From Pedobacter hartonius (GTDB lineage: Bacteria; Bacteroidota; Bacteroidia; Sphingobacteriales; Sphingobacteriaceae), in NCBI RefSeq assembly GCF_900107535.1, contig NZ_FNRA01000008.1, forward strand, positions 124,001 through 188,000: 64,000 nucleotides of DNA. Reading direction: 5' to 3'. Position 1 is the stretch's first letter. Every line of letters begins with the position of its first letter. Positions 17,418 through 34,777 of this stretch are shown here, piece by piece. The notes under the pieces were generated by a model. It did no database searches and was not told where the DNA came from. It saw only the letters and a list, made by a program, of their open reading frames with translations. The translations under genes and the position numbers were made by a program.

Positions 17418-20279
17418 TTATTTATCATTTGGCATCCCATAAAATTGGTTGAAGAGCAATTTGAACGTCCCCAGTGACTGTCCGCGGAAAGTGATCTCAG
17501 GACCAAAGGTATAGAGTTTTCCGGCACCAACTGATGCCACAAAACCGGCCACCCCGTCTTTCAGGTAGGACTGTCCCCAGGCCCATCCGCTGCGAAGGGG
17601 TTTGTCTGTCGGGAACCAGAGTACAGGCACTACACCCTTCCTGGCAGCATCATCATCCAGTTTAAATACCGGGCTGTTGTCAAAGTTCACATCTACATCA
17701 GCAGGCATCCCCCAGGCAGCAGGTACTTTCGGATCTACACTTACATGCAGGATGCTTCCCGGAATATAATATTTAGTGCCCGGCAGGGGTTTGTTGGTGT
17801 CTTTGTCCACCAGCGCGTTATGCACAGGAAGGCCAAGGTGGTACGCCAGGTTTGCACTGCTGCCTATTGTTAGGATAGCACCACCGGCTTCCAGGAAAGA
17901 CTTTAGCTGCGGAATAGATTTCTCCGGAGTGATCTTGCCCAGCATTTTCCGGAATTCCTCAGGTGTGTTTTCAGGTTTCGGCATCCGGTCGTAGAACATG
18001 CTGTTCGACTTAGGTTCGCCTCCTACAGGAGGAATGGCACGGGTGACAAATACGATGACATCATATTTGCTGTTCAGATTTCCGGCATCGATATCCTGCG
18101 GATAGACTATACTATAGTCGAAATGGTTTTGTTCCATCAGCCAGCGAAGCCATCCTGAAGGTATAGAGCCTCCATATTGGTCCCAAAGGCCAATACGAAG
18201 CGAAGTAATCTTTTTGGCATCTGCAGGCATCTCATCCGTTGCCATCACCTTTACTCCCAAACCGGCGTCAGCCTTATCAAGCACAGTTTGTGCGGCTGCA
18301 CTGGCAGGAATATAGAATGTACCCGTCTCAGCAAGTCCCCCGGCACCCTTTGGCACACGGTAGACCTCTACTCCCGCTTTGAGCAGATCATTGGCCACAC
18401 TAAACGAATTGTTCACTTGTGAACTCAACAGGTATCCTTTTCCCGAAGAAGGCACAACCTGTTTTGGAGGGACCTGGATCTGTCCGTAAGGAACCTTCAC
18501 GAAGGGCCCGCCAAAATTATTCAGTACACGCTCAAATTTTACGCCCATCTGGAAGGCCAGTGTCCATCCCGCAGCATCATAAGGCCGGATCGGAGGGCCT
18601 CCCGGGTAAAGAAAATCATTCGGGTGATCCTGTGGTTCAAACATATCCAGCACATGCGGACGGAAAGCCTGGTCGGTTTTCACAATATATGAACCGGCAG
18701 GGTAGTTAATGCCCTCCACGCTGAAACTGGCAGTGGCTTTCTGCACGCTGATCCCTGATTTAATCAGGGCGTTCAGGAACTTGATTGCGGTAGGAAAGTC
18801 GGGCTGGTCTGCAGAGATGATATACCCCCTTGCATCGCGGTTTGCCGGATTTTTGAGTACTGCATCATAATATTTCATAGGGATATCTGCACCGCGGGTC
18901 ATCCATCCCATTGGGTCCCATGCAGAACCAGCATTATCGCCGCCGCTTTTCTGATCGTTTTTGTAGGCTTGTGTAATGGCATCTGTACGTTTCGGCGACA
19001 GCGTCCAGTTATCTTTGCTTCCTCTGTCAATAGAATTTTTGCCCATCTTGTAGATATTGTACAGCACTTCGTCCCGCTGACGCGCCGCATAATCAAATAC
19101 AGAATAGTTTAATGATACCGAGTAGTCGATCGACTGGCGGAAGTGCCATACCTCCTGTGGCAAAACCGGGTTTGGTGTTGCGCCATTTGGTATAAGACGG
19201 GCAGGCACTAGCGGGATTTTCTCAGGCGTAGGATTACCGATGATCTCAGTAAGCAACCCGATCATATTGTGGAACTGCGTAGTGGTACGCAATCCACCGT
19301 TATACCAGGTAGAGAAACTCGATCCTGTCAGGCGGGTATATCCTGGTTTGTTTTCTACGTTAAGCCGACTGTACATCGCTGCACCGAGAGCGTCAATACC
19401 AGTGATCATCAGGGGATCGAACACATAATTGAACGGATCGCGGTACGGCGGGCCGGCAAGCACTGAACCTTCAGGGCCCCTCTGGTGATGGTTATACATG
19501 ATTTGAGGGAACCACTCCAGGAAAAGCTGTTTACTCATGTTGGTTGCTTCCTTCGTGTTCATCATATAATAATCACGGTTGTTATCGTGACCAATGTATT
19601 TTTCGTAGAGCGTAGGGATTTCAGTATTTCTTTTCAGCGGATCTGCATCTTTCATATACCAATTGGATACCAATTCCATTCCGTCAGGATTGGCATGCGT
19701 GAAGAGGACGATTACATTGTCGAGAATACGCATATTTTCGGGGTCTTTACGACTGATCAGCTGGTACATAGTTTCGATCAGCTGTGCTGCACCCACAACT
19801 TCTGTAGCATGCAGTCCGCCGTCAATCCAGACCACCGCTTTTCCTTTGGCTGCCAGCGTAAGCGCCTGCTGGTTGCTGAGGCCTTCAGCACGTGCGAGTT
19901 TCTGGGCGATATCCTTGTACATCGCCAGGTTTTTGATGTTCTCCGGTGAAGAAACAACCATCATATATTCGTGGCGCCCTTCTTCAGTAAGACCGATATC
20001 TACCAGTTTGGTCCTGGGAGAAGCTGCCAGCTTGTTGTAGTAGGCAACAGTTTGGGTGTAGTTGGCAAGTTTATAATCGTCTCCGATATTGAAACCGAAA
20101 TGCTCTTTGGGAGAGGGCACGCTCTGTCCGGGATATTTCGCCTGTTTGTAGCTGTCCGCCCTCTTGATAACGAGAGGTTTCTTTGGAGAAGCTGCGGTCT
20201 GCGCATTCCCCTGCGATGCTGTCACCAGCAGTACAGCGCTGAGCATCCAGGAAAACCTGGTATTTAAAAATGCTTTCAT
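17418..20279 (-). CDS. Exported M14-family zinc carboxypeptidase (953 aa)
   Basis: Signal peptide about 1-26 (ends GNAQ). The M14 peptidase domain has the zinc ligands H157 and E160 (GGLHATE), the third His at 264/265 (YNHHQRGPEG), a substrate carboxylate-binding NR pair (DNNRDYYM, 233-240) and the catalytic Glu E345 (LLTEIIG). The C-terminal third, from about residue 700, resembles a class I glutamine-amidotransferase-like domain (GSIPSGWLRWLMEQ, FLEAGGAILTIG). Known: M14 enzymes remove C-terminal residues from peptides. A full-length paralogue lies at 23277-26033. Last gene of the locus; a terminator follows. Confidence 0.92.
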   Translation of the reverse strand: MKAFLNTRFSWMLSAVLLVTASQGNAQTAASPKKPLVIKRADSYKQAKYPGQSVPSPKEHFGFNIGDDYKLANYTQTVAYYNKLAASPRTKLVDIGLTEEGRHEYMMVVSSPENIKNLAMYKDIAQKLARAEGLSNQQALTLAAKGKAVVWIDGGLHATEVVGAAQLIETMYQLISRKDPENMRILDNVIVLFTHANPDGMELVSNWYMKDADPLKRNTEIPTLYEKYIGHDNNRDYYMMNTKEATNMSKQLFLEWFPQIMYNHHQRGPEGSVLAGPPYRDPFNYVFDPLMITGIDALGAAMYSRLNVENKPGYTRLTGSSFSTWYNGGLRTTTQFHNMIGLLTEIIGNPTPEKIPLVPARLIPNGATPNPVLPQEVWHFRQSIDYSVSLNYSVFDYAARQRDEVLYNIYKMGKNSIDRGSKDNWTLSPKRTDAITQAYKNDQKSGGDNAGSAWDPMGWMTRGADIPMKYYDAVLKNPANRDARGYIISADQPDFPTAIKFLNALIKSGISVQKATASFSVEGINYPAGSYIVKTDQAFRPHVLDMFEPQDHPNDFLYPGGPPIRPYDAAGWTLAFQMGVKFERVLNNFGGPFVKVPYGQIQVPPKQVVPSSGKGYLLSSQVNNSFSVANDLLKAGVEVYRVPKGAGGLAETGTFYIPASAAAQTVLDKADAGLGVKVMATDEMPADAKKITSLRIGLWDQYGGSIPSGWLRWLMEQNHFDYSIVYPQDIDAGNLNSKYDVIVFVTRAIPPVGGEPKSNSMFYDRMPKPENTPEEFRKMLGKITPEKSIPQLKSFLEAGGAILTIGSSANLAYHLGLPVHNALVDKDTNKPLPGTKYYIPGSILHVSVDPKVPAAWGMPADVDVNFDNSPVFKLDDDAARKGVVPVLWFPTDKPLRSGWAWGQSYLKDGVAGFVASVGAGKLYTFGPEITFRGQSLGTFKLLFNQFYGMPNDK

Positions 20280-20311
20280 ATTTACGTTGGTTTTAGGTGG
20301 TTCTAAGTTTT

Positions 20312-21751
20312 CTATTTTCTGTAGTCCAGTGCAGGCTTTCTGTCGCCAAGCAGGGCCTCATACTTATAATCGGGCCCTTTCCGTTCATTAAATTCTTTGG
20401 TTGCCGCTTTGAGTGTTTCCGGTGTTTTGAAAAGGTCATAGGCAGAAAGCGCGATGGTTTTCGCAGCGATCATCATCCCTTTCTGCCCAATTGTATTGCC
20501 TGCAGCTGCAACATTCTGCCAGCTGTGGCCTGATGAACCGGGAACAAAAGTTGCCGTAAACACTCCTGCAGTTGGGGTTGCCCAGCTCACATCGCCTACG
20601 TCAGATGAGGCACCGCCTGCGGAATTCTTTAGTTCTACCGTAAAAGGCCCGACAGTTGAAGTACCGGCTAAAGACGGAGCTTTTCCACCCTGAAAGGTAG
20701 ATTGTATCTTTTCAGCGAAAGCCTTTTCTTCAGTCGTATAGGTAAAACCGCCTACCAGGCGCATATTTTTATCCATAACGGTAGAAAGCGCCACATTTGC
20801 CAGCATATTATAGGTGCCACCGATCACTTCATACTCCATTTTTGTGCCTGTACCCAGTGCAGCACCTTCCGCAGCTTTCACCATTCTCTCCCACACCTCT
20901 TTTACCACCTGCATATCGGGATTCCGTACATAATAATACACTTCTGCAAAGGCAGGAACCACATTTGGTGCTTCCCCTCCGCGTGTGATCACATAGTGGA
21001 TCCTCGTATCTGAAGGGATGTGCTCGCGCATCATGTTCACCATATTGTCCATTGCCTCTACTGCATCCAGTGCCGAGCGGCCTTTTTCCGGCGCTGCGGA
21101 AGCATGGGCAGCAATTCCTTTGAACCTGAACTTCGCACTTTTGTTGGCTAACCAGGGTGCAATACTTGCAGAGTTTGCATTGCCGGGGTGCCAGTGCAGG
21201 GTAGCATCTACATCGCTGAACAAGCCTGCACGCACCATATACACTTTTCCTGAGCCGCCTTCTTCTGCAGGACAGCCCATAACTTTGAGGGTGCCTTTGC
21301 CTCCGCTTTGTGCCATCCAGTCCTTAACGGCTATAGCTGCCGCAACTGATGCTGTTCCGAAAAGATTATGCCCGCAGCCATGACCGGCTTTGCCACCTGC
21401 AGATTCCTGAAACGGACTCTCCGTCTGGGAGATCCCGGGTAAGGCGTCATATTCAGCCAGGATAGCAATGACAGGTTTCCCCGAACCATAAGTAGCCACA
21501 AATGCTGTAGGAATGCCGGCTACACCTTTTTCCATTTTAAAACCGGCCTGTTCAAGCTGTGTTTCCAGCAATGCTGAACTTTTTTCTTCCTGGTAACCCA
21601 TTTCGGCAAATCCCCAGATATCTTTGGAAATCTTGTTGTATACCGCAATTTTTGCATCCAGGGAAGAGATCAGCTTTTTTTTGTCGGCATTCTGTGCGAA
21701 TACCGTAAAGGACATTCCCAGTGCCATGCTGAGCAGCGTAATTTTTTTCAT
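20312..21751 (-). CDS. Exported M20-family amidohydrolase (AbgB/M20D type), copy 1
   Basis: 479 residues with a signal peptide ending FAQ (about 1-20). Metal-binding HGCGHN at 124-129, the catalytic Glu pair E163/E164 (GCPAEEGGSG) and HWHPGN are visible. Known: relatives hydrolyse p-aminobenzoyl-glutamate, N-acyl amino acids or indole-acetyl-amino acid conjugates. It is a tandem duplicate of the gene 12 bases upstream; the dimerisation-domain block GRSALDAVEAMDNMVNMM is identical in both. Confidence 0.92.
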   Translation of the reverse strand: MKKITLLSMALGMSFTVFAQNADKKKLISSLDAKIAVYNKISKDIWGFAEMGYQEEKSSALLETQLEQAGFKMEKGVAGIPTAFVATYGSGKPVIAILAEYDALPGISQTESPFQESAGGKAGHGCGHNLFGTASVAAAIAVKDWMAQSGGKGTLKVMGCPAEEGGSGKVYMVRAGLFSDVDATLHWHPGNANSASIAPWLANKSAKFRFKGIAAHASAAPEKGRSALDAVEAMDNMVNMMREHIPSDTRIHYVITRGGEAPNVVPAFAEVYYYVRNPDMQVVKEVWERMVKAAEGAALGTGTKMEYEVIGGTYNMLANVALSTVMDKNMRLVGGFTYTTEEKAFAEKIQSTFQGGKAPSLAGTSTVGPFTVELKNSAGGASSDVGDVSWATPTAGVFTATFVPGSSGHSWQNVAAAGNTIGQKGMMIAAKTIALSAYDLFKTPETLKAATKEFNERKGPDYKYEALLGDRKPALDYRK

Positions 21752-21763
21752 CTTTATCGTTAA

Positions 21764-23194
21764 TTATTTCCTGTAATCCAGCGGTGGCTTTCTGTCGCCC
21801 AGCATCGCTTCATATTTAAAATCTGTCCCTCTTCTTTCTGCGAATTCCTTTGCTGCAGCTTTTAATACTACAGGGCTGTTAAAGAAGTCGTATGCCGAAA
21901 GCGCCAGTGTTTTTGCCGCGATCATCATGCCTTTGGCACCAATACTGGTTCCTGCAGCGGCAACATTCTGCCAGCTGTGACCGGCAGAGCCGGGAACAAA
22001 CGTAGCGGTGGATAATCCTGTAGTAGGAATCGTCCAGCTGACATCACTTACATCTGATGAACCATGTACATCCTCTTTCTCAAATGCCTGTATCTTTGCA
22101 GTTGAGGACAGGTCCGGTCCTTTACCACCCACAAAGCTCGTCTGAATCTTTTCAGCCCAGACTTTCTCCTCCGGCGTATAGGTAAAACCGCCTACGATCC
22201 TCAGGTTGGCATCCATGACCTTAGCCATAGCGAGGTTGGGCAGCATGTTGTAAACGCCCCCGGTAATCTCAACTTCCATCTTGGTTCCTGTACCCATTGC
22301 GGCACCTTCAGCAGCTTTGACTACTCTTGCCCAAACATCTTTTACCACTTGTTTGTCCTGGTTCCGCACATAATAATATACTTCTGCAAAGGCAGGAACC
22401 ACGTTTGGAGCTTCGCCACCATGGGTAATTACATAATGAACGCGGGTATCTGAGGGGATATGCTCACGCATCATGTTCACCATATTGTCCATGGCTTCTA
22501 CCGCATCCAGTGCAGAACGTCCTTTTTCCGGTGCCCCTGAAGCATGCGAAGAGATGCCTTTAAACCTGAATTTTCCACTGATGTTAGCCAGTGTGTTAAA
22601 TGTTCCTGCAGAATTCACATTTCCCGGATGCCAGTGCAGGGTAGCATCGACGTCATGGAACAGGCCTGCACGTACCATATATACTTTGCCCGATCCGCCT
22701 TCTTCTGCCGGGCAGCCCATCAACTTGATGGTTCCCGGTTTGCCCGAACTTTTCAGCCATTCACTGACAGCGATAGCTGCAGCTGTAGATGCTGTACCGA
22801 ACAGGTTGTGGCCGCAGCCATGACCCGCCTTCCCGCCGTTTGATTCCTGTACAGGATTGCCCGTTTGCGAAATCCCCGGAAGGGCGTCATATTCTGCCAG
22901 GATGGCGATCACCGGTTTTCCCGAACCATAAGTAGCCACAAAGGCTGTAGGGATATCTGCCACGCCTTTGGTAATGGTGAAACCTGATTTCTCCAGTTCG
23001 CTTTCCAGCAGGGCGGAACTTTTTACTTCCTGATAGCCCACTTCTTCAAAGCTCCAGATGTCTTTGGCAACTTTGGTATATTCATCAGTTTTTGCAGTCA
23101 GTGAACTGAGGATCTTCTTTTTATCCGCATTCTGTGCCATCACCCCGCAGGAGAGGCCAACAGCCATGGTAAGTAAAGTAATTCTCTTGATCAT
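21764..23194 (-). CDS. Exported M20-family amidohydrolase (AbgB/M20D type), copy 2
   Basis: 476 residues from the ATG at 23194, chosen because it gives a clean signal peptide (MIKRITLLTM to VMAQ); an in-frame start at 23230 adds twelve residues that would run into the upstream hairpin. HGCGHN (125-130) and the E-E pair (GCPAEEGGSG) are intact. Tandem paralogue of the 20312-21751 gene. A terminator-like hairpin lies directly upstream, so expression may be lower than that of the genes before it. Confidence 0.91.
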   Translation of the reverse strand: MIKRITLLTMAVGLSCGVMAQNADKKKILSSLTAKTDEYTKVAKDIWSFEEVGYQEVKSSALLESELEKSGFTITKGVADIPTAFVATYGSGKPVIAILAEYDALPGISQTGNPVQESNGGKAGHGCGHNLFGTASTAAAIAVSEWLKSSGKPGTIKLMGCPAEEGGSGKVYMVRAGLFHDVDATLHWHPGNVNSAGTFNTLANISGKFRFKGISSHASGAPEKGRSALDAVEAMDNMVNMMREHIPSDTRVHYVITHGGEAPNVVPAFAEVYYYVRNQDKQVVKDVWARVVKAAEGAAMGTGTKMEVEITGGVYNMLPNLAMAKVMDANLRIVGGFTYTPEEKVWAEKIQTSFVGGKGPDLSSTAKIQAFEKEDVHGSSDVSDVSWTIPTTGLSTATFVPGSAGHSWQNVAAAGTSIGAKGMMIAAKTLALSAYDFFNSPVVLKAAAKEFAERRGTDFKYEAMLGDRKPPLDYRK

Positions 23195-23212
23195 AAGATA
23201 GGTATTGAACAT

Positions 23213-23265
23213 AAAAAGCGCTGTCTGCATACTGAAGCACAGGGCAGCAGATTACAGACAACGCT
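23213..23265 (-). terminator. Terminator-like hairpin inside the peptidase operon
   Basis: Minus strand: an 11-base-pair stem (23255-23265 with 23217-23227, one G-T wobble) followed by TTTTTAT. It lies between the second M14 gene and the M20 gene whose ATG is only 19 bases farther on, so it probably attenuates rather than ends transcription (inference). Confidence 0.6.
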
Positions 23266-23276
23266 ATACAATGGGA

Positions 23277-26033
23277 TTATTTCTTCTGGTCGTACAATTC
23301 GTTAAACAGCATTTTGAAGGTACTGTGCGACTGGCCCCTGAACGTGATTTCCGGTCCGAAGGCATACAGTTTACCTTTTCCTACCGGTGCTTCAAACGCA
23401 GCCACACCATCTTTCAGGTACGCCTGTCCCCATGCCCATCCGCTATGCAGCGGTGTAGCCGTAGGGAACCATGCCAGTGGTTTAACGCCTTTTTCAGCAG
23501 ATCCGGCTTCCAGTTTAAATACCGGGCTTCTGTCAAAAAGAACATCGTTCTCCTCTGCCATACCCCAGTTTGAAGGCTGTGTTGTATCCAGGCTCACCTT
23601 TAACAAACTTCCCGGGATATAGTATTTAGTACCCGGAAGTGGTTTATCCTTGCCGTCTTTTCCCGGTTCTACCAGTTGGTTTTTAACCGGCAAACCCAGG
23701 TGATAGGCCAGGCTGGTACTTGTACCGATCGTTACGATATTACCGCCTGCTTCCAGGAATTTTTTCAGCATCGGTACTGATTTAGCAACGGACACCTTGC
23801 CCACCCATGGCTGGAACTCAGTGGGTACATCTTCTGCTTTCGGCATCCTGTCGAAATAACGGCTTGATGCCGCTGGTTTATCTGATGCGGGAACAATTCC
23901 CGTAACGAGGATAATTGCATCGAATTTTTTATTCAGGTCGCCCGCATCTACTTCATTCGGATAGATCATGGTATACCCATAGTGGTATTGCTCCATCAGC
24001 CAGCGTACCCATCCTGCCGGGATTGAACCTCCGTACACATCAACGATCGCAATACGTGAAGGTGTGATCTTAGTTAATCCTGACGGTTTTGCAGTTGCCG
24101 CAGTTACCGTTAAGCCGTAATCTGCGGCAGATTTGGTAAGGATAGCCTGTGCTTTTGCAGCAGCAGGAACATAGAATTCACCTGTGGTACCGCTGGTTGG
24201 CCGATAAACTTCGGCGCCGCCTTTCAGCAGGTCGTTCACCGCAATGAAAGCATTGTTTTGTTTAGGACTGATCGTGTAACCGCTTTTTGCAGCAGCAAGA
24301 GTCAGTTTCGGTGCCGACTGGATCTCTCCGTAAGGAACCTGTTTGAAAGAACCCGTAACTTCGCTCATCGCCCGGTCAAACTTCAGGCCCATCTGGAAGG
24401 CCAGTGTCCATCCCGCAGCATCATAAGGTTTGATCGGAGGCCCGCCTTCATACTGGAAATCATTCGGGTGATCCTGCGGTTCAAACATATCGATCACATG
24501 CGGGCGGAAAGCCTGAGCAGTGGAAACCACATAAGATCCTGCCGGATAGGTTTTACCTTCTGAGGTAAAGGCGGAAGTGGCTTTCTCCACACGGATACCG
24601 GAACGAATCAGTGCATTGATGAACCGTACTGCAGTGGGGAAATCTGACTGGTTTGCAGGAATCACATAAGCCCTTGCGTCACGCAATTCAGGGTTTTTCA
24701 TGACTGCATCAAAATATTTTGCAGGGATACCGCTTTCGCTGCCGAAAGAGAATTCACCTTCGCTTTTTTCTCCGCCAGTATCTTTTTTATCCTTGTTATA
24801 GGCGTCTTTAATGGCCTGTACATATTTAGGATAGAAAGTCCAGTGATCTTCATGCCCGCGTGCAATGGAGTTGATCCCCATCTGGTAAATATTATATAAT
24901 AAGTTGCTGCGGTTACGCGAAGCATAATCCAGTACTCCGTAATTCAGTGATACGGAATAGTCGATCGACTGACGGAAATGCCATTTCTGAGGAACAACCG
25001 GGTTAGGCGTAGCTCCGTTTGGAATCAGGCGGTCTGGCACCAGTGCGATATTTTCAGGAGTTGGCCCCCCGATGATTTCGGTAAGCAATCCCACCATATT
25101 GTGGAAATAAGGGGTAGTACGCAATCCACCATTCCACCAGGTAGAGAACTGCGAACCGTTACGCTGGGTATAACCCGGTTTATTTTCTGTATTCAGGCGG
25201 TTGTTCATCGATGCCCCTACGCCGTCAATACTGGTAACGATCAGCGGATCGAACACATAGTTGAAAGGGTCACGGTACGGAGGGCCTGCAAGAACAGAAC
25301 CTTCAGGGCCGCGCTGGTGGTGATTGTACATGATCTGGGGGATCCATTCCACAAACAGCTGGTTGCTGATGTTCTGGCTTTCCTTCATGTTCATCATATA
25401 GAAATCGCGGTTGTTGTCATGCCCTACGTATTTCTCATATACACGCGGGATATCCAGTTTACGCTTTAAGGTATCCGCATTGCGCATATACCAGTTACTC
25501 ACCAGCTCCTGCCCGTCCGGGTTGGCCTGCGTCAGCAGGATGATGTCATTGTTGAGGATGGTCATGGTTTCCTCGTCGGTACGGGTGACCAGCTGGTACA
25601 TGGTCTCGATCAGCTGGTGGGCTCCTACAGTTTCTGTGGCATGCAGCCCACCGTCAATCCAGACTACAGCTTTACCTTTTGCAGCAAGCTTTTTGGCTTC
25701 TGCAGGCGTAAGGCTTTCTGCATGGGCAAGTTTTGTAGAAATATCCTTGTATTCAGCCAGTTTTTTGATGTTCTCCGGTGAGGAAACGATCAGCATCCAC
25801 TGATGGCGGCCTTCTTCCGTCATCCCGATATCAACCAGCTTAGTCCGTGGCGAAGCCGCTAATTTTTTGTAATACGCCTCCGCCTGTGTATAGGTGGTCA
25901 GCTTGTAGTCATCCCCGATATTAAACCCAAAGTGCTCCTTTGGTGAAGGAATGGATTGCGCGCTGGCTAAGCCTGCTGTACACAGCAAAGCCAGGGTAAA
26001 CATTTTGCTAAATTTGTTGTACATATTCTCCAT
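23277..26033 (-). CDS. Exported M14-family zinc carboxypeptidase (918 aa), paralogue
   Basis: Signal peptide about 1-26 (LALLCTAGLASAQ). Zinc ligands H131 and E134 (GGLHATE), third His 238/239 (YNHHQRGPEG), DNNRDFYM and LLTEIIG are all kept, so it should be active. It shares architecture and long identical blocks with the 17418-20279 protein, but lacks about 25 residues after the signal peptide. The C-terminal glutamine-amidotransferase-like region is present. The start could also be the ATG three codons later. Confidence 0.92.
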   Translation of the reverse strand: MENMYNKFSKMFTLALLCTAGLASAQSIPSPKEHFGFNIGDDYKLTTYTQAEAYYKKLAASPRTKLVDIGMTEEGRHQWMLIVSSPENIKKLAEYKDISTKLAHAESLTPAEAKKLAAKGKAVVWIDGGLHATETVGAHQLIETMYQLVTRTDEETMTILNNDIILLTQANPDGQELVSNWYMRNADTLKRKLDIPRVYEKYVGHDNNRDFYMMNMKESQNISNQLFVEWIPQIMYNHHQRGPEGSVLAGPPYRDPFNYVFDPLIVTSIDGVGASMNNRLNTENKPGYTQRNGSQFSTWWNGGLRTTPYFHNMVGLLTEIIGGPTPENIALVPDRLIPNGATPNPVVPQKWHFRQSIDYSVSLNYGVLDYASRNRSNLLYNIYQMGINSIARGHEDHWTFYPKYVQAIKDAYNKDKKDTGGEKSEGEFSFGSESGIPAKYFDAVMKNPELRDARAYVIPANQSDFPTAVRFINALIRSGIRVEKATSAFTSEGKTYPAGSYVVSTAQAFRPHVIDMFEPQDHPNDFQYEGGPPIKPYDAAGWTLAFQMGLKFDRAMSEVTGSFKQVPYGEIQSAPKLTLAAAKSGYTISPKQNNAFIAVNDLLKGGAEVYRPTSGTTGEFYVPAAAKAQAILTKSAADYGLTVTAATAKPSGLTKITPSRIAIVDVYGGSIPAGWVRWLMEQYHYGYTMIYPNEVDAGDLNKKFDAIILVTGIVPASDKPAASSRYFDRMPKAEDVPTEFQPWVGKVSVAKSVPMLKKFLEAGGNIVTIGTSTSLAYHLGLPVKNQLVEPGKDGKDKPLPGTKYYIPGSLLKVSLDTTQPSNWGMAEENDVLFDRSPVFKLEAGSAEKGVKPLAWFPTATPLHSGWAWGQAYLKDGVAAFEAPVGKGKLYAFGPEITFRGQSHSTFKMLFNELYDQKK

Positions 26034-26042
26034 TTTTACGTT

Positions 26043-27362
26043 TTATTTATTCACTACGCCAGCCTCTGCTAACAAGACCAGCAGGGATTGCTGGATACCC
26101 AGATATCCCTTTTTATCATTCAAAAACCATTCGTTCAATGCGTGGTAGTTTCCCGATTCCCCTCCTGAACCAATTGTAATACCCGGTACACCTATTGAGA
26201 TCGGGATGTTGGAGTTTGCAGAACCAACGCCCAGTGTAGGGCTTGCCCCCAGGTATTTCATTGCCGCCATTGCATGCTGCACAAGCGGCTGTTTCGGATC
26301 GCTGCCTCCCGCAGGGCGGTCGCCAATCAACTTTACCTCTACGGTAAGATCTTTACCTGCTTTTTTCATCGCATTTTCCTCTGCCAGTTCCTTTTTTACC
26401 GCAGCCTGCAACAGCGCATCCATCGCATTTAACCGTTCAGGATTTTCTGAACGCATGTCTACTTCCATCCAGGATTCGAATGGAATGGAGTTTACCGAAG
26501 TACCACCACCAATCACCCCTACGCTGAAAGTTACCCTGATGCCCGGTGTGGCAGCAAATGCATTTCCAGATTCATCCCAGTAGTGCATGGCACGCCCCAG
26601 GGCATTGTGCGGATTACCGATACCGAATGCTCCGGAAGAATGCCCTCCGGGACCTCTGAAGGTTACCCTGTAACGGTGTGAACCCAAACCACGGTGGGTG
26701 GTATGCCCGTATCCGGTTCCGTCAAATGCGATATAGGAATCAATTTTCCCTGGCCCGGAAGGGCTGAACAGGTTCCTTACACCCCTCAGGTCTCCCTGTC
26801 CCTCTTCACCGGTGGTGCCGATAAATAAAATATCTGCATCGGTTTGGATGCCGGTCTCTTTCATAGATTTCACTACTGTAAGCAGTGCTGCCAAACCCCG
26901 GGTATCATCACTCACGCCGGGAGCGTATAGGGTGTCTCCTTTAAAAGTGACCTTGGTATCGGTTCCTTCAGGAAATACGGTATCCAGATGTCCTTCCAGA
27001 ACCACCTTTTTCTTCCCGGTTTTTCCCTTGCGCAGGCCAATCACATTCCCCGCAGTGTCTGTCCATACAGAATCTACACCAGCGGCTTTGAGCATTTCGG
27101 CAAATTTGATACCCCTGGCTGTTTCTTTATAGGGTGGTGCAGGGATCCCGGTTAGCGTGATGTGGTTACTCCTGGTTTCTTTTTCCAGGTCGATGATTGT
27201 CTGCAATGCCTTTTTCACTATCGCCTTACTGGTGATTTTTGCAATATCAGCGGTATACTGCTGCGCTATCGGGGCCGTTTTAGGAAGTTCCTGGGCGGAA
27301 CCGGACATAGCGGTACCCAGGGCGAGCAGCAGAGACAGTGCAGGTATGGTCAATTTCTTCAT
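26043..27362 (-). CDS. Exported M20-family dipeptidase/tripeptidase-like enzyme, copy 1
   Basis: 439 residues, signal peptide ending GSAQ (about 1-24). Metal ligands H125 and D127 (LEGHLDTVFP), bridging Asp in GVSDDTRG (152/153), and the catalytic Glu E186 with E187 (TGEEGQGD) are visible. It resembles the PepT/M20 group acting on small peptides. A tandem paralogue starts 7 bases upstream. Confidence 0.9.
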   Translation of the reverse strand: MKKLTIPALSLLLALGTAMSGSAQELPKTAPIAQQYTADIAKITSKAIVKKALQTIIDLEKETRSNHITLTGIPAPPYKETARGIKFAEMLKAAGVDSVWTDTAGNVIGLRKGKTGKKKVVLEGHLDTVFPEGTDTKVTFKGDTLYAPGVSDDTRGLAALLTVVKSMKETGIQTDADILFIGTTGEEGQGDLRGVRNLFSPSGPGKIDSYIAFDGTGYGHTTHRGLGSHRYRVTFRGPGGHSSGAFGIGNPHNALGRAMHYWDESGNAFAATPGIRVTFSVGVIGGGTSVNSIPFESWMEVDMRSENPERLNAMDALLQAAVKKELAEENAMKKAGKDLTVEVKLIGDRPAGGSDPKQPLVQHAMAAMKYLGASPTLGVGSANSNIPISIGVPGITIGSGGESGNYHALNEWFLNDKKGYLGIQQSLLVLLAEAGVVNK

Positions 27363-27369
27363 GTGATGG

Positions 27370-28701
27370 TTATTTTGCAGCTAAACCAGCTTCAGAGAGC
27401 AGAACCAGCAGCGATTGTTGAATCCCGATGTAACCTTTATCATTTAAAAACCACTCGTTGAGTGAATGTGCGTTGCCTGCTTTTCCGCCCTGACCGATGG
27501 TCATTGCCGGTACACCTTTTGAAAATGGGATGTTTGAATCTGTAGATGCCACACCCAGTTTCGGTGTTCCACCAAGATAAACTATTGAAGCCATCATGTG
27601 CTGAACTAACGGAATTGTTGCAGGGTTGCCTCCTGCAGGTCGGTCGCCGATCAGTTTGATAGCTACAGTCAGGTCCTTACCTGCTTTTTTCATCGCGTTT
27701 TCTTCTACAAGTGCTTTCTGTACCGCAGCCTGGAACAGGGCATCCATCGCATTTAACCGCTCAGGGTTTTCAGAACGCATATCTACTTCCATCCAGGATT
27801 CAAAAGGAATGGAATTGACTGAAGTACCGCCGCCGATGACGCCTACACTAAAAGTTACCCTTACGCCGGGTATTGCAGCATAAGCATTCCCGGTCTCATC
27901 CCAATAGTGCATGGCGCGGCCCAGGGCATTGTGCGGGTTGCCGATACCGAAGGCACCTGAAGAGTGCCCGCCCGGTCCTTTAAAAGTGACCCTGTAACGG
28001 TGAGAACCCAGTGCGCGGTGTACAATGCCTTCTGTTCCCGAGCCATCAATGGCGATGAAGGAATCAATTTTTCCGGGGCCTGCAGGGCTGAAAAGATTTT
28101 TAACACCCCTCAGGTCGCCCTGTCCTTCTTCACCGGTAGCACCCACAAATAAAACGTCGGCATCAGTCTGGATTCCCGTTTGTTTCATCACCTTCGCGAT
28201 CGTCAGCACAACAGCCAGCGACCGGGTATCATCTCCAACACCGGGAGCACACAGGGTATCCCCCCTGTACTTTACCGTCACATCGGTACCTTCAGGAAAA
28301 ACAGTATCCATATGGGCTTCCAGCACTACCCGTTTTTTGCGGGTACGGCCTTTACGCAGTGCCAGTACATTGCCGGCAGTATCTGTCCAAACAGAATCTA
28401 CTCCTGCGGCAGTGATCATTTCTAAAAACTTCGCTGCCCTTTTGGCCTCTTTATATGGAGGAGAAGGGATTTCGGTCAGCAGCACATGATTGCTCATGGT
28501 TTCCTTTTCCAGATCAACGATTTGCTGCATTGCTTTTTTTACCAGCGGCGCCGCAGCGATCTTTTTAATTTCTGCCGTATACTTTTTGTCTACAGGCACC
28601 GGGGCCGACTGATCGCTTACCTGTGCAGTTACCGTACCAGCACCTGCAGCCAGCAGCAGCACGAAAAGCGCTTTTGCAGCATTTTTTTTATTTATGACCA
28701 T
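27370..28701 (-). CDS. Exported M20-family dipeptidase/tripeptidase-like enzyme, copy 2
   Basis: 443 residues, signal peptide ending TVTAQ (about 1-27). H130 and D132 (LEAHMDTVFP), D157 (GVGDDTRS) and E191/E192 (TGEEGQGD) are kept. It is the first peptidase gene after the Sus-type lipoprotein gene, from which it is separated by a 106-base gap holding a long hairpin. Confidence 0.9.
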   Translation of the reverse strand: MVINKKNAAKALFVLLLAAGAGTVTAQVSDQSAPVPVDKKYTAEIKKIAAAPLVKKAMQQIVDLEKETMSNHVLLTEIPSPPYKEAKRAAKFLEMITAAGVDSVWTDTAGNVLALRKGRTRKKRVVLEAHMDTVFPEGTDVTVKYRGDTLCAPGVGDDTRSLAVVLTIAKVMKQTGIQTDADVLFVGATGEEGQGDLRGVKNLFSPAGPGKIDSFIAIDGSGTEGIVHRALGSHRYRVTFKGPGGHSSGAFGIGNPHNALGRAMHYWDETGNAYAAIPGVRVTFSVGVIGGGTSVNSIPFESWMEVDMRSENPERLNAMDALFQAAVQKALVEENAMKKAGKDLTVAIKLIGDRPAGGNPATIPLVQHMMASIVYLGGTPKLGVASTDSNIPFSKGVPAMTIGQGGKAGNAHSLNEWFLNDKGYIGIQQSLLVLLSEAGLAAK

Positions 28702-28747
28702 ATTAATTTCTATTTAAGTATTGGAATCCTATGCTCTTGCTGGATAT

Positions 28748-28800
28748 TTACATACATAGAGCGGATAACCGGTCAGAATGATCGGCTATCCGGTATGTAA
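28748..28800 (-). other. Long intercistronic stem-loop between lipoprotein and peptidase genes
   Basis: Minus strand: an outer stem of eight pairs (TTACATAC with GTATGTAA) and an inner stem of about thirteen positions (one wobble, one mismatch), a six-base bulge on the 3' side and a five-base loop. No T-run follows, so it is less likely a terminator and may be an RNA stability or processing element that separates expression of the transport genes from that of the peptidases (inference). Confidence 0.6.
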
Positions 28801-28807
28801 CGAGATG

Positions 28808-29431
28808 TTATTGACTTTTGAAGCGTACTCCTGTACGGGTCTCCCCGGGTTCTCCGCGCGACTCATCTGCAAGGTTGGCAAACCAGGCGGCAACGCGGCG
28901 GCCGTCAGACAGGTTCACTACAAACTTAAACAGGAAGTAATCGTTCACAGCAACGGAACTTAAACTCACCTTATTCAACGCAGCAAGTTCTGCCGCAGTA
29001 AAGGTATAAGTCTTTGGAAAAGTAGTTACCGTTTCGTACAGTACATCCGCCGTCCCGATATTCCCGGGAATAGGAAACTGAGCGATGTTGGGATACTGGT
29101 TACCCGGTGAAGAGATCACGATAGGGTAAGCAGGCACACTCGCTTCTGCCTTGTTGAAACTTCTGTACACCTCTATTGAGGTTATACTTGCGTAGCCAGA
29201 TCCTTCCCAGTTAAGGGTGAACGACATCCGCTCATCTGCAAGGTTAGCATCCTTCAGGTTGAAAAATGAAACTTTAGCATTCTGGCGGGTAGGTAATGCA
29301 GATATCGCAGTATCTATCTTCACAGTGGGAATTGCAGTGTAGGTATAGCCCTCCCATTCATAATGGGTCTTTTTACATGAACCTAATCCCAGCAAACAGA
29401 TGCATGATATGGACAGTATAAAATTTTTCAT
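28808..29431 (-). CDS. Sus-locus-associated lipoprotein of unknown function
   Basis: 207 residues. A lipoprotein signal ends at C19 (GLGSCKK). The rest is beta-rich with a possible Ig-like fold (SFTLNWEGSGYASI). I do not recognise a named family. It directly follows the SusD-like gene, where accessory surface lipoproteins that bind substrate are usually encoded, so a surface substrate-binding role is a reasonable inference. Confidence 0.75.
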   Translation of the reverse strand: MKNFILSISCICLLGLGSCKKTHYEWEGYTYTAIPTVKIDTAISALPTRQNAKVSFFNLKDANLADERMSFTLNWEGSGYASITSIEVYRSFNKAEASVPAYPIVISSPGNQYPNIAQFPIPGNIGTADVLYETVTTFPKTYTFTAAELAALNKVSLSSVAVNDYFLFKFVVNLSDGRRVAAWFANLADESRGEPGETRTGVRFKSQ

Positions 29432-29467
29432 AAATTCTTTTTATTTGGTAATAGTTTAATTAACTTT

Positions 29468-31060
29468 TTATTTATCCCAAAAAACAGGTGTTACCTGCTG
29501 TGCAACCTGTATTGCACCGGCATTGGCACCAAAAGAGGTATTTGCAGAAAGTTCCGTCTGAGAATAATAAAGGCGCAGCGGAAATGTACTCAACGGAGAT
29601 AAAAGATCACGCAGAACCGGTAAACCTGTTCTTCTGTAATCGTTATATGTTTCCATACCATTACCATAGGTGGCAATGTACTTCTGCGTCATCACCAGGT
29701 TCAGTTTCCCTGCAGGGGTAGCTGCATCATACTGTGCCAGTAGCTTGGCCACAAGACCTGTGATGCTTGCTGCCGGTATGGCCGTACCATTATTTGCAAC
29801 AGCAAATGCACTCACGCTGCTCAGGCTGGCTGTAACACCATCACTGAAATAAGCCCTTGCATCGTCACCCGTTGCCAGCGTTAAGGCGGCCTCAGCCCTG
29901 ATGAATTTCACCATTGCATTGGTGATGAAAGGAATCACACCTGCGCCTGTTCCATCAGTAACAGCGACTACCTTAGGCGTAGCAGTTGCGCCTGTATTGG
30001 TCAGGTATAAATTGGCTGCAGTCAGGTTGTTGATCGGACTGTTATCATAAAGCCCTCCCGCAGGATATACACCAAACTCAGCCCTGCGTGCCAAATCTGC
30101 AGGAGCAGCAGTACCGTCACCGGGGTTACGGCCATAGTAACCATTGCTGTTTGTTGAGTTGTTCAAACCCGCAGTTGCAGTTTGCCTGTAGATAAAATTT
30201 CTCAGACGCGGATCATCGTTGTTAAACAACAGGTCCATAAAGAACTGGTTCTGATAAAAGGTTTTGGCCGATTGGTATTCGACACGGTGCCATGGATGAC
30301 GGTTATTGGGGTTCTGCCCGGAACCAAACTTAAAGGTGAAATCCAGCGCATTGGTACTGATCAGCGATCCTGCAATCAGGGTTTTGATTGCTGTAGCCGA
30401 TCTCGCAGGGTCTACCAGTCTTATCTGGTTATACATCTTTAATTTCAGAGAGTTTGCCATGGCAATCCATGAAGCTTTTGTACCTGCGTAGAAAACGTCT
30501 GAAGTAGATGGTACCAACGTAGTAGTGGTAACCTTACCCGCATCTGCGATCCCGTCATCAATCATCAGCAATAGCTTCTCATAGATGGCATCTCCTTTTT
30601 CCAGTGGCGGACTGGTGGTTACAGCGCCGTTTTCAGCCTCTGAATAAGGAATATCACCCCACATGTCTACCATCAGGCTATACAGATAAGCTTTCTCAAA
30701 CTTAGCGATAGCCACATATCCCCATTGCTGTGAAGAAGTTCCTGTAGAGATGATGGACTCAAGGTCATTCAGTGTCTGACTGTAAAAGCCGTCCCAGGAG
30801 TTCGCATAATCTGTACCCTGCTGCTGGTAACGGCTGATCGAAGTTGACCACATGGTTTGCTGCATGATAGTGGATGTACCGCTGTTCAGCTGATACATGT
30901 TTCCTGCCATAGATATTTCTGTGGAGGGCAAAAGCAGCGTTAATTGTGCTGTGGTAGGATTGTTCGGATCCTGGTTGATGTCTACAAATTTCTTGCAGGC
31001 ACTACCTGTCAGCAATACACCGGCTAACAGAAACATATATTTTTTATTTCTCATTTTCAT
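29468..31060 (-). CDS. SusD/RagB-family surface lipoprotein
   Basis: 530 residues with lipidation Cys at residue 22 (LLTGSACKKF), then VDINQDPNNP, the start typical of the SusD-like group. TPR-like helices and the late MTQKYIATYGNGMETYNDYR block, common in SusD proteins, are present. Known: SusD closes over the SusC barrel as a lid and delivers ligand. It starts 36 bases after susC. Confidence 0.92.
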   Translation of the reverse strand: MKMRNKKYMFLLAGVLLTGSACKKFVDINQDPNNPTTAQLTLLLPSTEISMAGNMYQLNSGTSTIMQQTMWSTSISRYQQQGTDYANSWDGFYSQTLNDLESIISTGTSSQQWGYVAIAKFEKAYLYSLMVDMWGDIPYSEAENGAVTTSPPLEKGDAIYEKLLLMIDDGIADAGKVTTTTLVPSTSDVFYAGTKASWIAMANSLKLKMYNQIRLVDPARSATAIKTLIAGSLISTNALDFTFKFGSGQNPNNRHPWHRVEYQSAKTFYQNQFFMDLLFNNDDPRLRNFIYRQTATAGLNNSTNSNGYYGRNPGDGTAAPADLARRAEFGVYPAGGLYDNSPINNLTAANLYLTNTGATATPKVVAVTDGTGAGVIPFITNAMVKFIRAEAALTLATGDDARAYFSDGVTASLSSVSAFAVANNGTAIPAASITGLVAKLLAQYDAATPAGKLNLVMTQKYIATYGNGMETYNDYRRTGLPVLRDLLSPLSTFPLRLYYSQTELSANTSFGANAGAIQVAQQVTPVFWDK

Positions 31061-31096
31061 AATTCTACCTGATTTAAATACTTTAATTTCAATTCA

Positions 31097-34000
31097 TTAA
31101 AAGGTGAACCTGAGGTTAACGCCAAATCTTTTGGTTGTTGGCACAGAAAGGTTGTCATACCCTTGGGAGTTACCTGCACCCAATGAACTTACTTCAGGGT
31201 CAAAATTTGTGTATTTAGGGAAATTTGGTGCGTAATACCACAAGTTACGGCCGGTTACCGAAATCATGCCTGATCCGAACGGTGTTCCTTTCAGCATGCT
31301 TTTAGGGAACTGGAAGGCAAGGGATACTTCGCGCAGACGGAATACAGTAGCGTCAAAAATTGATCCTTCATCCACACCACCCGGGCCTATACCGCCGTTA
31401 AAGAACAGATCTTCATAAGAGATACCTACGTTATTAGGAATGGTATTCCCGTTTGCATCCAGGATAGGCTGCAGCGTTGCCGGGTTACCCAGTACTCCAG
31501 GAGATACCAAAACGCCTTCCCTGTTTTCCGTATCCCTGGTTACACCGCGGGATAACATTTGTCCGACAGTATTGGAATACAGATCGCCGCCCTTTTTGAG
31601 GTCGAACAATACAGAGAGAGAGAAATTCTTGTAAGTGAAGTTATTGGTAATACCCAGGATGTAATCAGGGTTAGGATTACCGATCGCTTTTAATGAACCG
31701 GACTGCAATGGTTTCCCGGTATTCGGATCGATCAGGATATCTCCTGCTGAATCACGTGCATAGGCAGTTCCGTAGATCAAACCGTAAGCCTTGCCCACCA
31801 TGTGTACACTGCTTGTTCCGGCTGCACCACCAAAAACGAACTGCTGGTACCCGCCAAGGTTGTTGATCAAGTTCCTGTTACGGGTAAATACTGTTGAAAT
31901 ATCCCAGCTAAATCCATTCGGGTTACGGAAAGGTGCCAGGTTCAGGGCAATCTCCACCCCTTTATTTGTAGCCTCACCCAGGTTTAAGATCTGGGTAGTG
32001 AAACCTGATGAGGGGGCTGCCGTTACCTCAAAGATCTGAGAAGTACTTTTCTTATTGTAATAAGTAACATCAAGGCCGATGCGGTTTTTAAAGAACTGCA
32101 GCTCTGTACCTACCTCAAGCTCTGTGATAAACTCAGGCTTCAGATTGGAATTGGTTAAGAGGTTGGCCAGTGTGGAAGAATTATAGGTACCATTTGAATT
32201 TGTGAACGGCGAGCCTATAGAACCCACACCGGTAGTAGCACCAAGCGGTGAATTTACCAGGTAGAATTCTGCTGTCTGGTAGGCGGTAGACTCATTACCT
32301 ACACGGGTGTAACCACCTCTGACTTTACCAAAGCTAAGGATCTTGTCATCCATCTTGAAGGCTTTCGTGAAGATGAAGGAACCATTTGCACCACCATAAA
32401 AATAACTTCTGTTGTTAGCCGGCAGTGTAGAAGAGATATCATTACGTCCAACTAAGTTTAAAGAGGCGTAGTCTTTATAGTCGAAGGTGATATCCGTAAA
32501 AAATGCATAGTAACGTTGTTTCAATAAGTTTCTGTTGTTGGTTAACTGGATAGGTGTTACAGAACTGGTGTTCGTGATTGTGTTCAGATCCGGCACAATA
32601 ATTCCGTCGCCGTAAAATGCTTTACGGTCTGTTAAACGCTGATTGATGTTATTACCCGCAATCCACCTTAAGGAGAGGTCGCTGGTTAGTTTTTTAGTAG
32701 CAGTAACTAAAAACGTGTTGTCCAGCTCCTGACGGTAGATGTCATCTGTGGCGATACTTCCGTTTGAATAAGATGAAGAACCTTTACCACGTACATTCAG
32801 TCTTCTGTCAGTATAGGCGTTGAAACCTGCAGTATTCTGGATGTTTAACCATGGCAGCGGATCAAATCCAAGCACAAGGTTACCATAATACCTGTCTACA
32901 TTGCTTGTGGAAACACTATGTACGGTAGACCAGTACGGGTTATCAAGCCCTGTATAATCATATACGTTACTTCCGTCAATAGGATTTTCGTAAGGGTTGC
33001 CAGTAAGGTCAAAACTTGTAGGTGTGTACATTAAAGCCGACATGATCGACCCGGTAGCACCTCCGATAGGTGGCGTTTTTTGTCCTGTAGTCACATAGTT
33101 CATGGAACCACTCACGTAGAACTTGTTATCCAGCTTCATATTTCCACTGATGTTGAACGAGGTACGGTTGATCGAATTTCCCGGAACAACACCTGTATTG
33201 TTCGTTCTTGAAAAACCTGCATTCAGGTTTCCTTTTTCGCTACCGGAAGAGATGGAAAGCGCATTTTCATAAACACTTCCTGTTCTGAAGAAATTCTTTG
33301 CATTTTCTTCAGCATAAGATCGGTAAGGGATCTGTATCGGTGTAACACCATCGGCCTGGTATAACTGCGGGAAAACTGCCGATGAGAACTGCCTTGTTAA
33401 CTGGGCAGGGATGGTAGCCCTGGTTGGCAGGATACTCTGAACACCCGGAAAAGGCTGTCCCCATGAACCATAAACCCCCTGGCGGTAATCGTTATTGGTT
33501 CCCTGTCCGTATTTGGTCTGGTATTCCGGAAGGCCGGAAACATTTTCAACCGAATAGGACGTATTATAGGTGATCTCAGTTCCTTTTCTGCTCATTTTCT
33601 TACCTGCTTTGGTAGTGATGATCACCGCACCATTGGCAGCTCTGGAACCATATAATGCCGCAGCAGCCGCACCTTTCAGTACCGTCATGCTCTGGATGTT
33701 ATTGGGATCAAGGTCAAACGCACGGTTGGTAACGCTTGAACCGCCGCTGCTCTGTCCACCTACATTTCCGAAACTGGAGTTGTCAAACGGAACACCATCT
33801 ACAACAAATAAGGGTTGGTTGTTACCATTCAGTGAAGAACTACCACGAATGTTGATATTGGTGGAACCACCGGCAACACCACCGGAAGAACCGATGTTCA
33901 CCCCTGCAACTTTACCGGTTAAGGCACGCAGCGGATCAGGCTCAGATTTCTGGGCCAGTTTGTCTGAACTCAGCGTGGAAACAGAATAGCCCAGCGTAGT

Positions 34001-34705
34001 TTTTTCCCGCTTGATACCCGCGGCCGTCACCACAACCTCACTCAGTGCATTTGAACTTTCGCTCAGCTGAACATTGATCACAGTATTTGCTTCTACCAGG
34101 ACTTCCTGAGTTTGAAAGCTCACATAAGTAAAGACCAGCACACTTTCGTTGTTTGGGATGCTGATCCTGTAATTTCCATCGGAGCCCGTGACAGTTCCTG
34201 TTTTTGTACCCTTAATGGACACACTCACGCCGGGAAATGGTTTGCCGTCAGCTTTTCCGGTGACCTTACCCGTGACAATGCGCTGCACGTTAGGCAGGAC
34301 CAGGCCGTTTGCAATCAGGCTATCGGCGAATGCGAGCTGGTTTTTTTTTAAAACGATATATTGACTGGCATTTACGGTATAATCAACATCGAGTGCTGTA
34401 AGCATCCCATTTAAAATATCGCCTAATTTTTCCTGGCTGGCATTTACACTTACCTTAGTGGTCAGCGGAATAATGGTTGAACTGTAAACAAATTTCACAT
34501 TTGCCTTATTCTGGATATTATGGAGTGCTGTTTCCAGCGTCACATTTTTTAAATTGATGGAAAGCCTTTTATTCAAAACACTCTCTGCGGAAACAGAATT
34601 GGCGAATAACACACCTGAGAGCATAAATAGCGAAATGATCTGTAAAACTGATACCCGCATGAGCTGAATAAAAAGAACCTTTCTGGTTTCCTTACATTTT
34701 TGCAT
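31097..34705 (-). CDS. SusC/RagA-family TonB-dependent transporter with N-terminal STN signalling domain
   Basis: 1202 residues from the ATG at 34705 (MQKCKETRK); an in-frame start at 34771 would add 22 residues and include half of an operator-like palindrome. Order: signal segment (about 15-42), STN domain (about 48-120; residues NLKNVTLETALHNIQ), a carboxypeptidase-regulatory-like domain (about 145-225; GKPFPGVSVSIKGT), plug (SEVVVTAAGIKREKTTLGYS, NINIRGSSSLNG, FVVDGVPFDN) and a 22-stranded barrel ending in NLRFTF. Known: an STN domain contacts FecR in the periplasm to trigger the ECF sigma. Here the neighbouring genes suggest peptides as cargo rather than glycans (inference). Confidence 0.94.
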   Translation of the reverse strand: MQKCKETRKVLFIQLMRVSVLQIISLFMLSGVLFANSVSAESVLNKRLSINLKNVTLETALHNIQNKANVKFVYSSTIIPLTTKVSVNASQEKLGDILNGMLTALDVDYTVNASQYIVLKKNQLAFADSLIANGLVLPNVQRIVTGKVTGKADGKPFPGVSVSIKGTKTGTVTGSDGNYRISIPNNESVLVFTYVSFQTQEVLVEANTVINVQLSESSNALSEVVVTAAGIKREKTTLGYSVSTLSSDKLAQKSEPDPLRALTGKVAGVNIGSSGGVAGGSTNINIRGSSSLNGNNQPLFVVDGVPFDNSSFGNVGGQSSGGSSVTNRAFDLDPNNIQSMTVLKGAAAAALYGSRAANGAVIITTKAGKKMSRKGTEITYNTSYSVENVSGLPEYQTKYGQGTNNDYRQGVYGSWGQPFPGVQSILPTRATIPAQLTRQFSSAVFPQLYQADGVTPIQIPYRSYAEENAKNFFRTGSVYENALSISSGSEKGNLNAGFSRTNNTGVVPGNSINRTSFNISGNMKLDNKFYVSGSMNYVTTGQKTPPIGGATGSIMSALMYTPTSFDLTGNPYENPIDGSNVYDYTGLDNPYWSTVHSVSTSNVDRYYGNLVLGFDPLPWLNIQNTAGFNAYTDRRLNVRGKGSSSYSNGSIATDDIYRQELDNTFLVTATKKLTSDLSLRWIAGNNINQRLTDRKAFYGDGIIVPDLNTITNTSSVTPIQLTNNRNLLKQRYYAFFTDITFDYKDYASLNLVGRNDISSTLPANNRSYFYGGANGSFIFTKAFKMDDKILSFGKVRGGYTRVGNESTAYQTAEFYLVNSPLGATTGVGSIGSPFTNSNGTYNSSTLANLLTNSNLKPEFITELEVGTELQFFKNRIGLDVTYYNKKSTSQIFEVTAAPSSGFTTQILNLGEATNKGVEIALNLAPFRNPNGFSWDISTVFTRNRNLINNLGGYQQFVFGGAAGTSSVHMVGKAYGLIYGTAYARDSAGDILIDPNTGKPLQSGSLKAIGNPNPDYILGITNNFTYKNFSLSVLFDLKKGGDLYSNTVGQMLSRGVTRDTENREGVLVSPGVLGNPATLQPILDANGNTIPNNVGISYEDLFFNGGIGPGGVDEGSIFDATVFRLREVSLAFQFPKSMLKGTPFGSGMISVTGRNLWYYAPNFPKYTNFDPEVSSLGAGNSQGYDNLSVPTTKRFGVNLRFTF

Positions 34706-34760
34706 ACATTTGTTTGATTTTTTGTTAATTTCCTGATTGAATGAGACAAAAAAGTCCCTT

Positions 34761-34777
34761 ACCCATATCATATGGGT
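34761..34777. promoter_or_regulatory. 17-base palindrome upstream of susC
   Basis: ACCCATAT and ATATGGGT form perfect eight-base arms around a single central base, 56 bases before the chosen susC start. Candidate operator or regulator-binding site; no known regulator can be assigned from sequence alone. Confidence 0.5.

Follow-up and report, generated by a model that had tools for sequence, protein, structure and literature searches.

Gene content, conservation and regulation of the locus

The DNA analysed here is a 64,000-nucleotide stretch of Pedobacter hartonius (contig NZ_FNRA01000008.1, positions 124,001 to 188,000), hereafter the window. It contains a SusCD-type importer locus whose enzymes are exported metallopeptidases and which probably serves the scavenging of oligopeptides. 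All nine genes described in an earlier sequence-only reading were found, in the order SusC-SusD-lipoprotein-M20-M20-M14-M20-M20-M14, as a single minus-strand run between 34705 and 17418 (Table 1), with gaps of 36, 36, 106, 7, 9, 46, 12 and 32 nt between them. SusC scores 572.8 bits against the SusC/RagA model TIGR04056 (cut-off 368) and also matches the signature TIGR04057. An STN domain aligns to its residues 93-142 at 25.6 bits, slightly under the curated cut-off of 28.4. The SusC start at 34705 (MQKCKETRK) agrees better with related genes than does the longest open reading frame (ORF), which starts at 34771. SusD, whose gene adjoins SusC, matches SusD-like_2 at 187.6 bits and has the lipobox LLTGSAC. 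As judged by eye, SusD and the third protein both carry lipoboxes, and the signal peptides of all six enzymes end at an A/Q junction. The four M20 proteins match Peptidase_M20, the two M14 proteins match Peptidase_M14, and the metal-ligand motifs are intact in 6/6 enzymes. M20b1 probably starts at an internal MIKRITLL. Within pairs, protein identity is 72% for M20a1/M20a2, 74% for M20b1/M20b2 and 63% for M14a/M14b. Directly 3′ of the last gene lies the terminator TCCGCTCCGGTC-AATA-GACCAGAGCGGA-TTTTTT (-34.7 kcal/mol over 91 nt). Pfam and NCBIfam scans reported no type IX secretion C-terminal domain in the locus proteins and no glycosidase in the ten locus genes, where a polysaccharide utilization locus (PUL) would hold at least one carbohydrate-active enzyme. 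The signal peptides, metal ligands, short gaps, closing terminator and absence of glycosidases are thus all as the sequence-only reading had described them.

The whole run is found in identical order in P. westerhofensis, with 89-95% protein identity, so that the gene order is conserved far beyond chance. A third Pedobacter genome (G673) has the run with one M20a and one M20b gene, placed as here between a PepP-like peptidase gene and XdhC-MobA-MoaA genes. A genome from another genus of the family (G020) has single M20a and M20b genes and a shorter SusC, and shows no FecR gene within 1.5 kb upstream. The more distant loci were gathered through M14a, and 24 of them contain a SusD of the locus type (L013 and L016 denote one place). 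These 24 come from Pedobacter, Mucilaginibacter, Chitinophaga, Spirosoma and Dyadobacter, and the recurrence of the linkage in the last four genera answers positively the gene-order search across Bacteroidota that had been suggested from the sequence alone. The core that is kept is SusC-SusD-lipoprotein-M14, with M20a and M20b variably present. Since loci gathered through M14a carry an M14 gene by design, a search with the lipoprotein as query was added as an unbiased check. It gave three further confident matches: G673 and G444, both adjacent to an M14 gene, and G693, which was taken as P. westerhofensis. The SusCD-lipoprotein-M14 linkage was retained in every checkable locus with a lipoprotein of this type.

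The 5′ limit of the locus had previously been set at the SusC gene. The genes between 17418 and 34705 were correctly delimited, but this boundary was drawn too early, as a FecR gene and an extracytoplasmic function (ECF) sigma factor gene belong to the locus. In P. westerhofensis and G673 the orthologous ECF sigma gene is the immediate upstream neighbour of FecR. Here it is found 3.3 kb beyond FecR, behind genes for an AraC regulator, a major facilitator superfamily (MFS) transporter and a short-chain dehydrogenase/reductase (SDR). Given the adjacency in the two relatives, the AraC-MFS-SDR genes were most likely inserted in P. hartonius, and they are probably outside the locus system. The FecR/ECF adjacency that marks trans-envelope signalling is therefore present in the sense that FecR adjoins SusC, with the sigma gene displaced by three genes. 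STN on SusC and FecR upstream were found together in 16/16 Pedobacter, Mucilaginibacter and Chitinophaga loci that contain this stretch. In Spirosoma, STN is absent from 4/4 loci and FecR from 3/3 with enough upstream DNA. In both Dyadobacter loci FecR is present, and the long N-terminus of SusC bears just weak similarity to STN.

The third gene encodes a lipoprotein that may be a surface binding protein. Its predicted model (predicted local distance difference test score, pLDDT, 72; 20 relatives aligned) gave only weak matches to Ig-like folds, with Z about 7, which yielded no usable name, and naming by fold was dropped. The gap between the lipoprotein and M20a1 genes contains a hairpin with the stem CGGATAGCCG/CGGTTATCCG, a possible candidate for an element that sets a step in expression. 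A longer stem occupies the same spot in P. westerhofensis, and the gap is just 20 nt in G673.

Table 1. Features of the SusCD-peptidase locus, in window coordinates.
Feature	Position	Strand	Basis or remark
ECF sigma factor	39197..39736	-	Sigma70_r2 and r4_2; cognate of the locus
AraC regulator, MFS transporter and SDR oxidoreductase	36064..38986	-	Pfam; between sigma and FecR
FecR anti-sigma factor	34900..35874	-	FecR and FecR_C, both over cut-off
Possible mini-ORF ATG-ATA-AAA-TAG (MIK*)	34854..34865	-	23 nt 5′ of hairpin P1
Structured RNA leader of susC	34705..34842	-	Covariance model match; 3′ end is susC start
SusC/RagA TonB-dependent outer-membrane transporter, putative N-terminal STN	31097..34705	-	TIGR04056, Plug; STN just below cut-off
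SusD-like surface lipoprotein (lid)	29468..31060	-	SusD-like_2, E 4e-55
Lipoprotein of locus type, beta-sandwich	28808..29431	-	No Pfam or NCBIfam family
Hairpin in the lipoprotein-M20a1 gap	28702..28807	-	Stem as given in the text
M20a1, exported M20 peptidase	27370..28701	-	Peptidase_M20; ligand motifs intact
M20a2, exported M20 peptidase	26043..27362	-	Nearest solved structure 7ljh
M14a, exported zinc carboxypeptidase-like protein, 918 aa	23277..26033	-	Peptidase_M14
M20b1, exported M20 amidohydrolase	21764..23230	-	TIGR01891, 272 bits (cut-off 154)
M20b2, exported M20 amidohydrolase	20312..21751	-	Nearest solved structure HmrA
M14b, exported zinc carboxypeptidase-like protein, 953 aa	17418..20279	-	Peptidase_M14
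Intrinsic terminator	17337..17370	-	Stem-loop of about 11 pairs, then TTTTTT

The M14 and M20 enzymes

Residues 33-375 of M14a adopt a carboxypeptidase A fold in the predicted model, which superimposes on carboxypeptidase A4 with Z 23.4 over 257 residues and a root-mean-square deviation of 2.7. The zinc ligands of the HxxE...H motif and the catalytic Glu (H131, E134, H238/H239 and E319) are invariant in 64 M14 sequences. Beyond the carboxypeptidase domain, residues 380-918 (23277-24900, minus strand) form a stretch of about 540 well-conserved residues. A tree built by a quick method, with Shimodaira-Hasegawa-like approximate likelihood ratio (SH-aLRT) values as its only support, separates an M14a clade (98) from an M14b clade (99), each with Pedobacter, Mucilaginibacter and Chitinophaga members. 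As each clade spans the three genera, the M14 duplication predates their separation, unless the locus spread later between genera. Seventeen positions cleanly separate M14a from M14b, and 10 of these fall within residues 265-309 of 918, which precede the catalytic Glu and correspond to the stretch that bears the specificity loop in carboxypeptidases. This distribution supports different residue preferences for M14a and M14b.

Within the same stretch, R305 directly follows a GG motif and is invariant in the 64 M14 sequences, and likewise in M14 proteins without SusCD. It may lie at or beside the specificity position. Among M14 enzymes of animals, a preference for acidic C-terminal residues is associated with a basic residue 255 (PMC9925722). 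Profile searches of solved structures stop near residue 214, and hhalign, run against a carboxypeptidase T-like pair, yielded 46 aligned columns, none of which reaches the R305 region. Alignment to a Pedobacter M14 type of 846 aa places an Asp about opposite R305, which does not prove the equivalence to position 255, and model confidence is low for the loop 289-302. An acidic C-terminal preference of the locus enzymes is possible but only hinted at.

The nearest solved relatives of M20a2 are the poly(aspartic acid) hydrolase 7ljh (E 3e-92), carboxypeptidase G2 (8e-15) and, only then, an entry named tripeptidase (1e-8). The label 'PepT-like' previously attached to M20a thus does not hold. M20b2 is closest to HmrA (3e-48) and to the Xaa-Arg dipeptidase PM20D2 (2e-37), followed by an aminobenzoyl-glutamate protein (7e-17). 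Its former designation as AbgB-like is only partly correct: AbgB-type proteins are among the relatives, but HmrA and PM20D2 rank before them. In trees, both the M20a and the M20b duplication fall between two splits, the earlier from G020 and the later from G673. A duplication after the G673 split was ruled out, as G673 branches with M20a1 and M20b2; for the same reason G673 more likely lost M20a2 and M20b1. By these trees, the M20 pairs are specific to the Pedobacter lineage. The proposal that each enzyme type was duplicated for different residues is consequently not supported as worded: it is supported for the M14 pair, ancient and divergent around the specificity loop, whereas the M20 pairs are lineage-specific.

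A structured leader upstream of susC

The least expected part of the locus is an RNA leader. The gap between FecR and SusC contains the sequence GGCAGAGGTG-TTGAAGC-CACCTCTGCC, identical in three Pedobacter genomes, with variable far flanks. The leader consists of a hairpin P1, a stem P2 (CCCCU/AAGGG) enclosing a hairpin P2b, and a stem P3 (UUUGU/ACAAA). A first covariance model, built from 11 Chitinophaga leaders only (18 pairs), matches the leader in the window with an E value of 4e-7 in 1 Mb, as well as two Mucilaginibacter leaders at the same place. Besides Chitinophaga's own leaders it found nothing further under E 0.5 across 46 loci. Over 17 leaders, 94.6% of cells are paired and 16 cells are changed on both sides, slid versions being far lower. 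The observed covariation was reached in 0/500 shuffles, in an alignment that was adjusted to the structure and contains the rows used for training, and is thus biased in its favour. Single-sequence folding is mixed, with z values from -3.7 to 0 (-3.3 for the window). The leader region matches none of 4227 Rfam families at E values up to 1.

In the P. hartonius genome the first model has a second match (E 0.004), which falls between FecR and SusC of a GH92 locus. This leader-bearing locus (L150, G000:C20:262000-272000) reads sigma-FecR-SusC(STN)-SusD-BT_3987-like lipoprotein-GH92. Its row entered the training of a second model, whose high score at this place is therefore no independent evidence. 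Across 39 Pedobacter genomes the second model matched five places outside its training set (a second place in G693, and G647, G598, G597 and G686), with FecR on one side and the start of a SusC gene on the other in 5/5. At the G686 place (L197, G686:C32:140000-153000) the SusC is distant (34% identity), and a possible S9-type peptidase gene was seen by eye downstream. Weak phylum-wide matches (L184-L187) have no SusC nearby and were taken as chance. The leader was found at 2/23 sigma-FecR-SusC cassettes seen in P. hartonius. The 21 others have no match, which rules out a general leader of all FecR-SusC cassettes and makes a direct comparison of cassettes with and without it possible in one genome.

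In 16/17 leaders of the locus an ATG lies 19-28 nt 5′ of P1, often opening an ORF of 3-9 codons that ends before P1, a pattern noticed post hoc and without a chance level. It could be a mini-ORF or a promoter element, and either fits equally. Since a glycan locus with GH92 has the leader as well as the peptidase locus, it is not peptide-specific, and it would respond to a general signal rather than to the cargo. It is about as likely as not that this element is a hitherto undescribed structured leader of the susC mRNA, perhaps with an upstream ORF of 3-9 codons, and that it controls translation of susC, or read-through, on top of the ECF sigma factor. If functional, such a leader would add a post-transcriptional layer of control to SusC genes governed by ECF/FecR.

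Cargo and function of the locus

Peptides are known cargo of SusCD systems, as documented for RagAB (PMC7782687, PMC11817032) and for Bt2261-64 with oligopeptide ligands (PMC7782687). Because the SusCD-peptidase linkage recurs without a glycosidase, a periplasmic peptide-trimming module is the best reading, and we consider it probable that the locus is a regulated, SusCD-fed module for oligopeptide scavenging under ECF/FecR control. In this scheme, SusD and the extra lipoprotein would bind short peptides at the cell surface, and SusC would take them up using TonB energy. In the periplasm, M14a and M14b would trim C-terminal residues with differing preferences, and M20a (poly-Asp hydrolase/carboxypeptidase G2-like) and M20b (HmrA/PM20D2-like) would cleave the di- and oligopeptides or amides so produced. 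SusC carrying its cargo would signal through its putative STN domain to FecR, which would release the ECF sigma factor to switch on susC. As no secreted endoprotease is encoded, the peptides would have to come from other proteins or organisms.

Several observations weigh against the scavenging module. The substrate and all the functional steps are inferred from sequence. The best-scoring solved relatives of SusD bind glucans, so that the SusD sequence does not favour peptides; Bt2263 is also among the solved relatives (5fq6, 1e-17). Part of the regulation is not peptide-specific, the leader being present at the GH92 locus too. The locus is rare, its lipoprotein occurring in 3/145 Pedobacter genomes and in 2/395 genomes of the phylum sample (this one included). 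Moreover, the same M14 family is frequent without SusCD, with a strong homologue in 87/201 Sphingobacteriaceae genomes, and the M14 enzyme thus does not need a SusCD importer.

The cargo could be more specialized. Acidic amides, such as alpha- or beta-linked Asp or Glu peptides or polymers resembling poly-Asp or poly-Glu, with enzymes adapted to them, are suggested by the proximity of M20a to poly(Asp) hydrolase and then carboxypeptidase G2, by the invariant R305, which may lie at or near the M14 specificity position, where in animal enzymes a basic residue 255 goes with acidic preference (PMC9925722), and by the breakdown of poly(Asp) by Pedobacter sp. KP-2 (PMC4456602). However, the match of R305 to position 255 is not fixed, given the profile comparison that missed the region and the low-confidence loop, and R305 is just as invariant in M14 proteins without SusCD. 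The KP-2 parallel concerns Pedobacter and the enzyme described from it, PahZ1, and we regard acidic amides as rather unlikely to be the dedicated cargo. N-acyl amino acids or aminobenzoyl-glutamate, as the sequence-only reading had it, are improbable. M20b does match TIGR01891, a general model for amidohydrolases, and counts structures of AbgB and acylase type among its remote relatives, but HmrA and PM20D2 are far closer. In addition, five conserved loci (L016, L017, L020, L056 and L068) have no M20b, while M14 is always present, and from general knowledge such small molecules would not require a SusCD importer. What stands of the proposed dedicated utilization locus is thus the peptide or amide part, in view of the conserved linkage without glycosidase; aminobenzoyl-glutamate was a weak guess, with AbgB well behind HmrA and PM20D2.

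An importer of glycopeptides or glycans, with its glycosidases encoded elsewhere in the genome, would agree with the glucan-binding relatives of SusD and with the leader held in common with the GH92 locus. Yet no other gene intervenes between the SusCD and the peptidase genes in the SusD-bearing loci examined, and the peptidases always adjoin (outer neighbours were clustered and partly annotated), which leaves this explanation no more probable than the N-acyl cargo. A role in recycling peptides of the cell's own wall, or of other parts of its envelope, is very improbable. The enzymes are of the exported exopeptidase type and TonB-dependent transporters could recapture shed material, but the locus is sporadic (3/145 Pedobacter) and has no muramidase, amidase or permease.

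Under the preferred reading, the oligopeptide-scavenging module, the locus is best seen as a less common, peptide-linked version of a familiar importer type. RagAB of Porphyromonas gingivalis is likewise a SusCD-type pair with oligopeptide cargo (PMC11817032; PMC7782687); compared with RagAB taken without its gene neighbourhood, the Pedobacter locus adds exported M14 and M20 enzymes, an extra lipoprotein and ECF/FecR control. Bt2261-64 of Bacteroides thetaiotaomicron, compared on cargo and SusD, is likewise a SusCD complex with oligopeptide ligands (PMC7782687), and its SusD is recognizably similar in sequence (5fq6). The locus shares the arrangement sigma-FecR-SusC (here with a putative STN)-SusD-lipoprotein-enzymes with ECF/FecR-controlled PULs and is of the same cassette type as 22 others in this genome, but has peptidases in place of carbohydrate-active enzymes. 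M20a shares sequence family and metal sites with 7ljh and carboxypeptidase G2, from which it differs by its SusCD linkage. M20b similarly belongs to the sequence family of HmrA and PM20D2, and differs in being predicted as exported and linked to SusCD. No description of this type of peptidase-SusCD locus, or of the leader, was found in the open-licence literature searched.

The usual reading of SusCD systems is that they import sugars, and this locus is a reason against annotating every SusCD as a glycan locus. Conserved in three Bacteroidota orders, the SusCD-exopeptidase arrangement offers a defined and testable case of peptide import by soil bacteria. The two old M14 clades, differing at the specificity loop, provide a clean pair for the study of divergence after duplication.

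Two other features of the window were noted. A large PepP-like M24 peptidase gene (40166-41977, plus strand) is divergent from the locus and adjoins it in three Pedobacter genomes; it is possibly a mere neighbour. At 9166-9978 (minus strand), an Xre/MbcA/ParS-type antitoxin gene (9625-9978) and an adjoining short ORF probably form a toxin-antitoxin pair.

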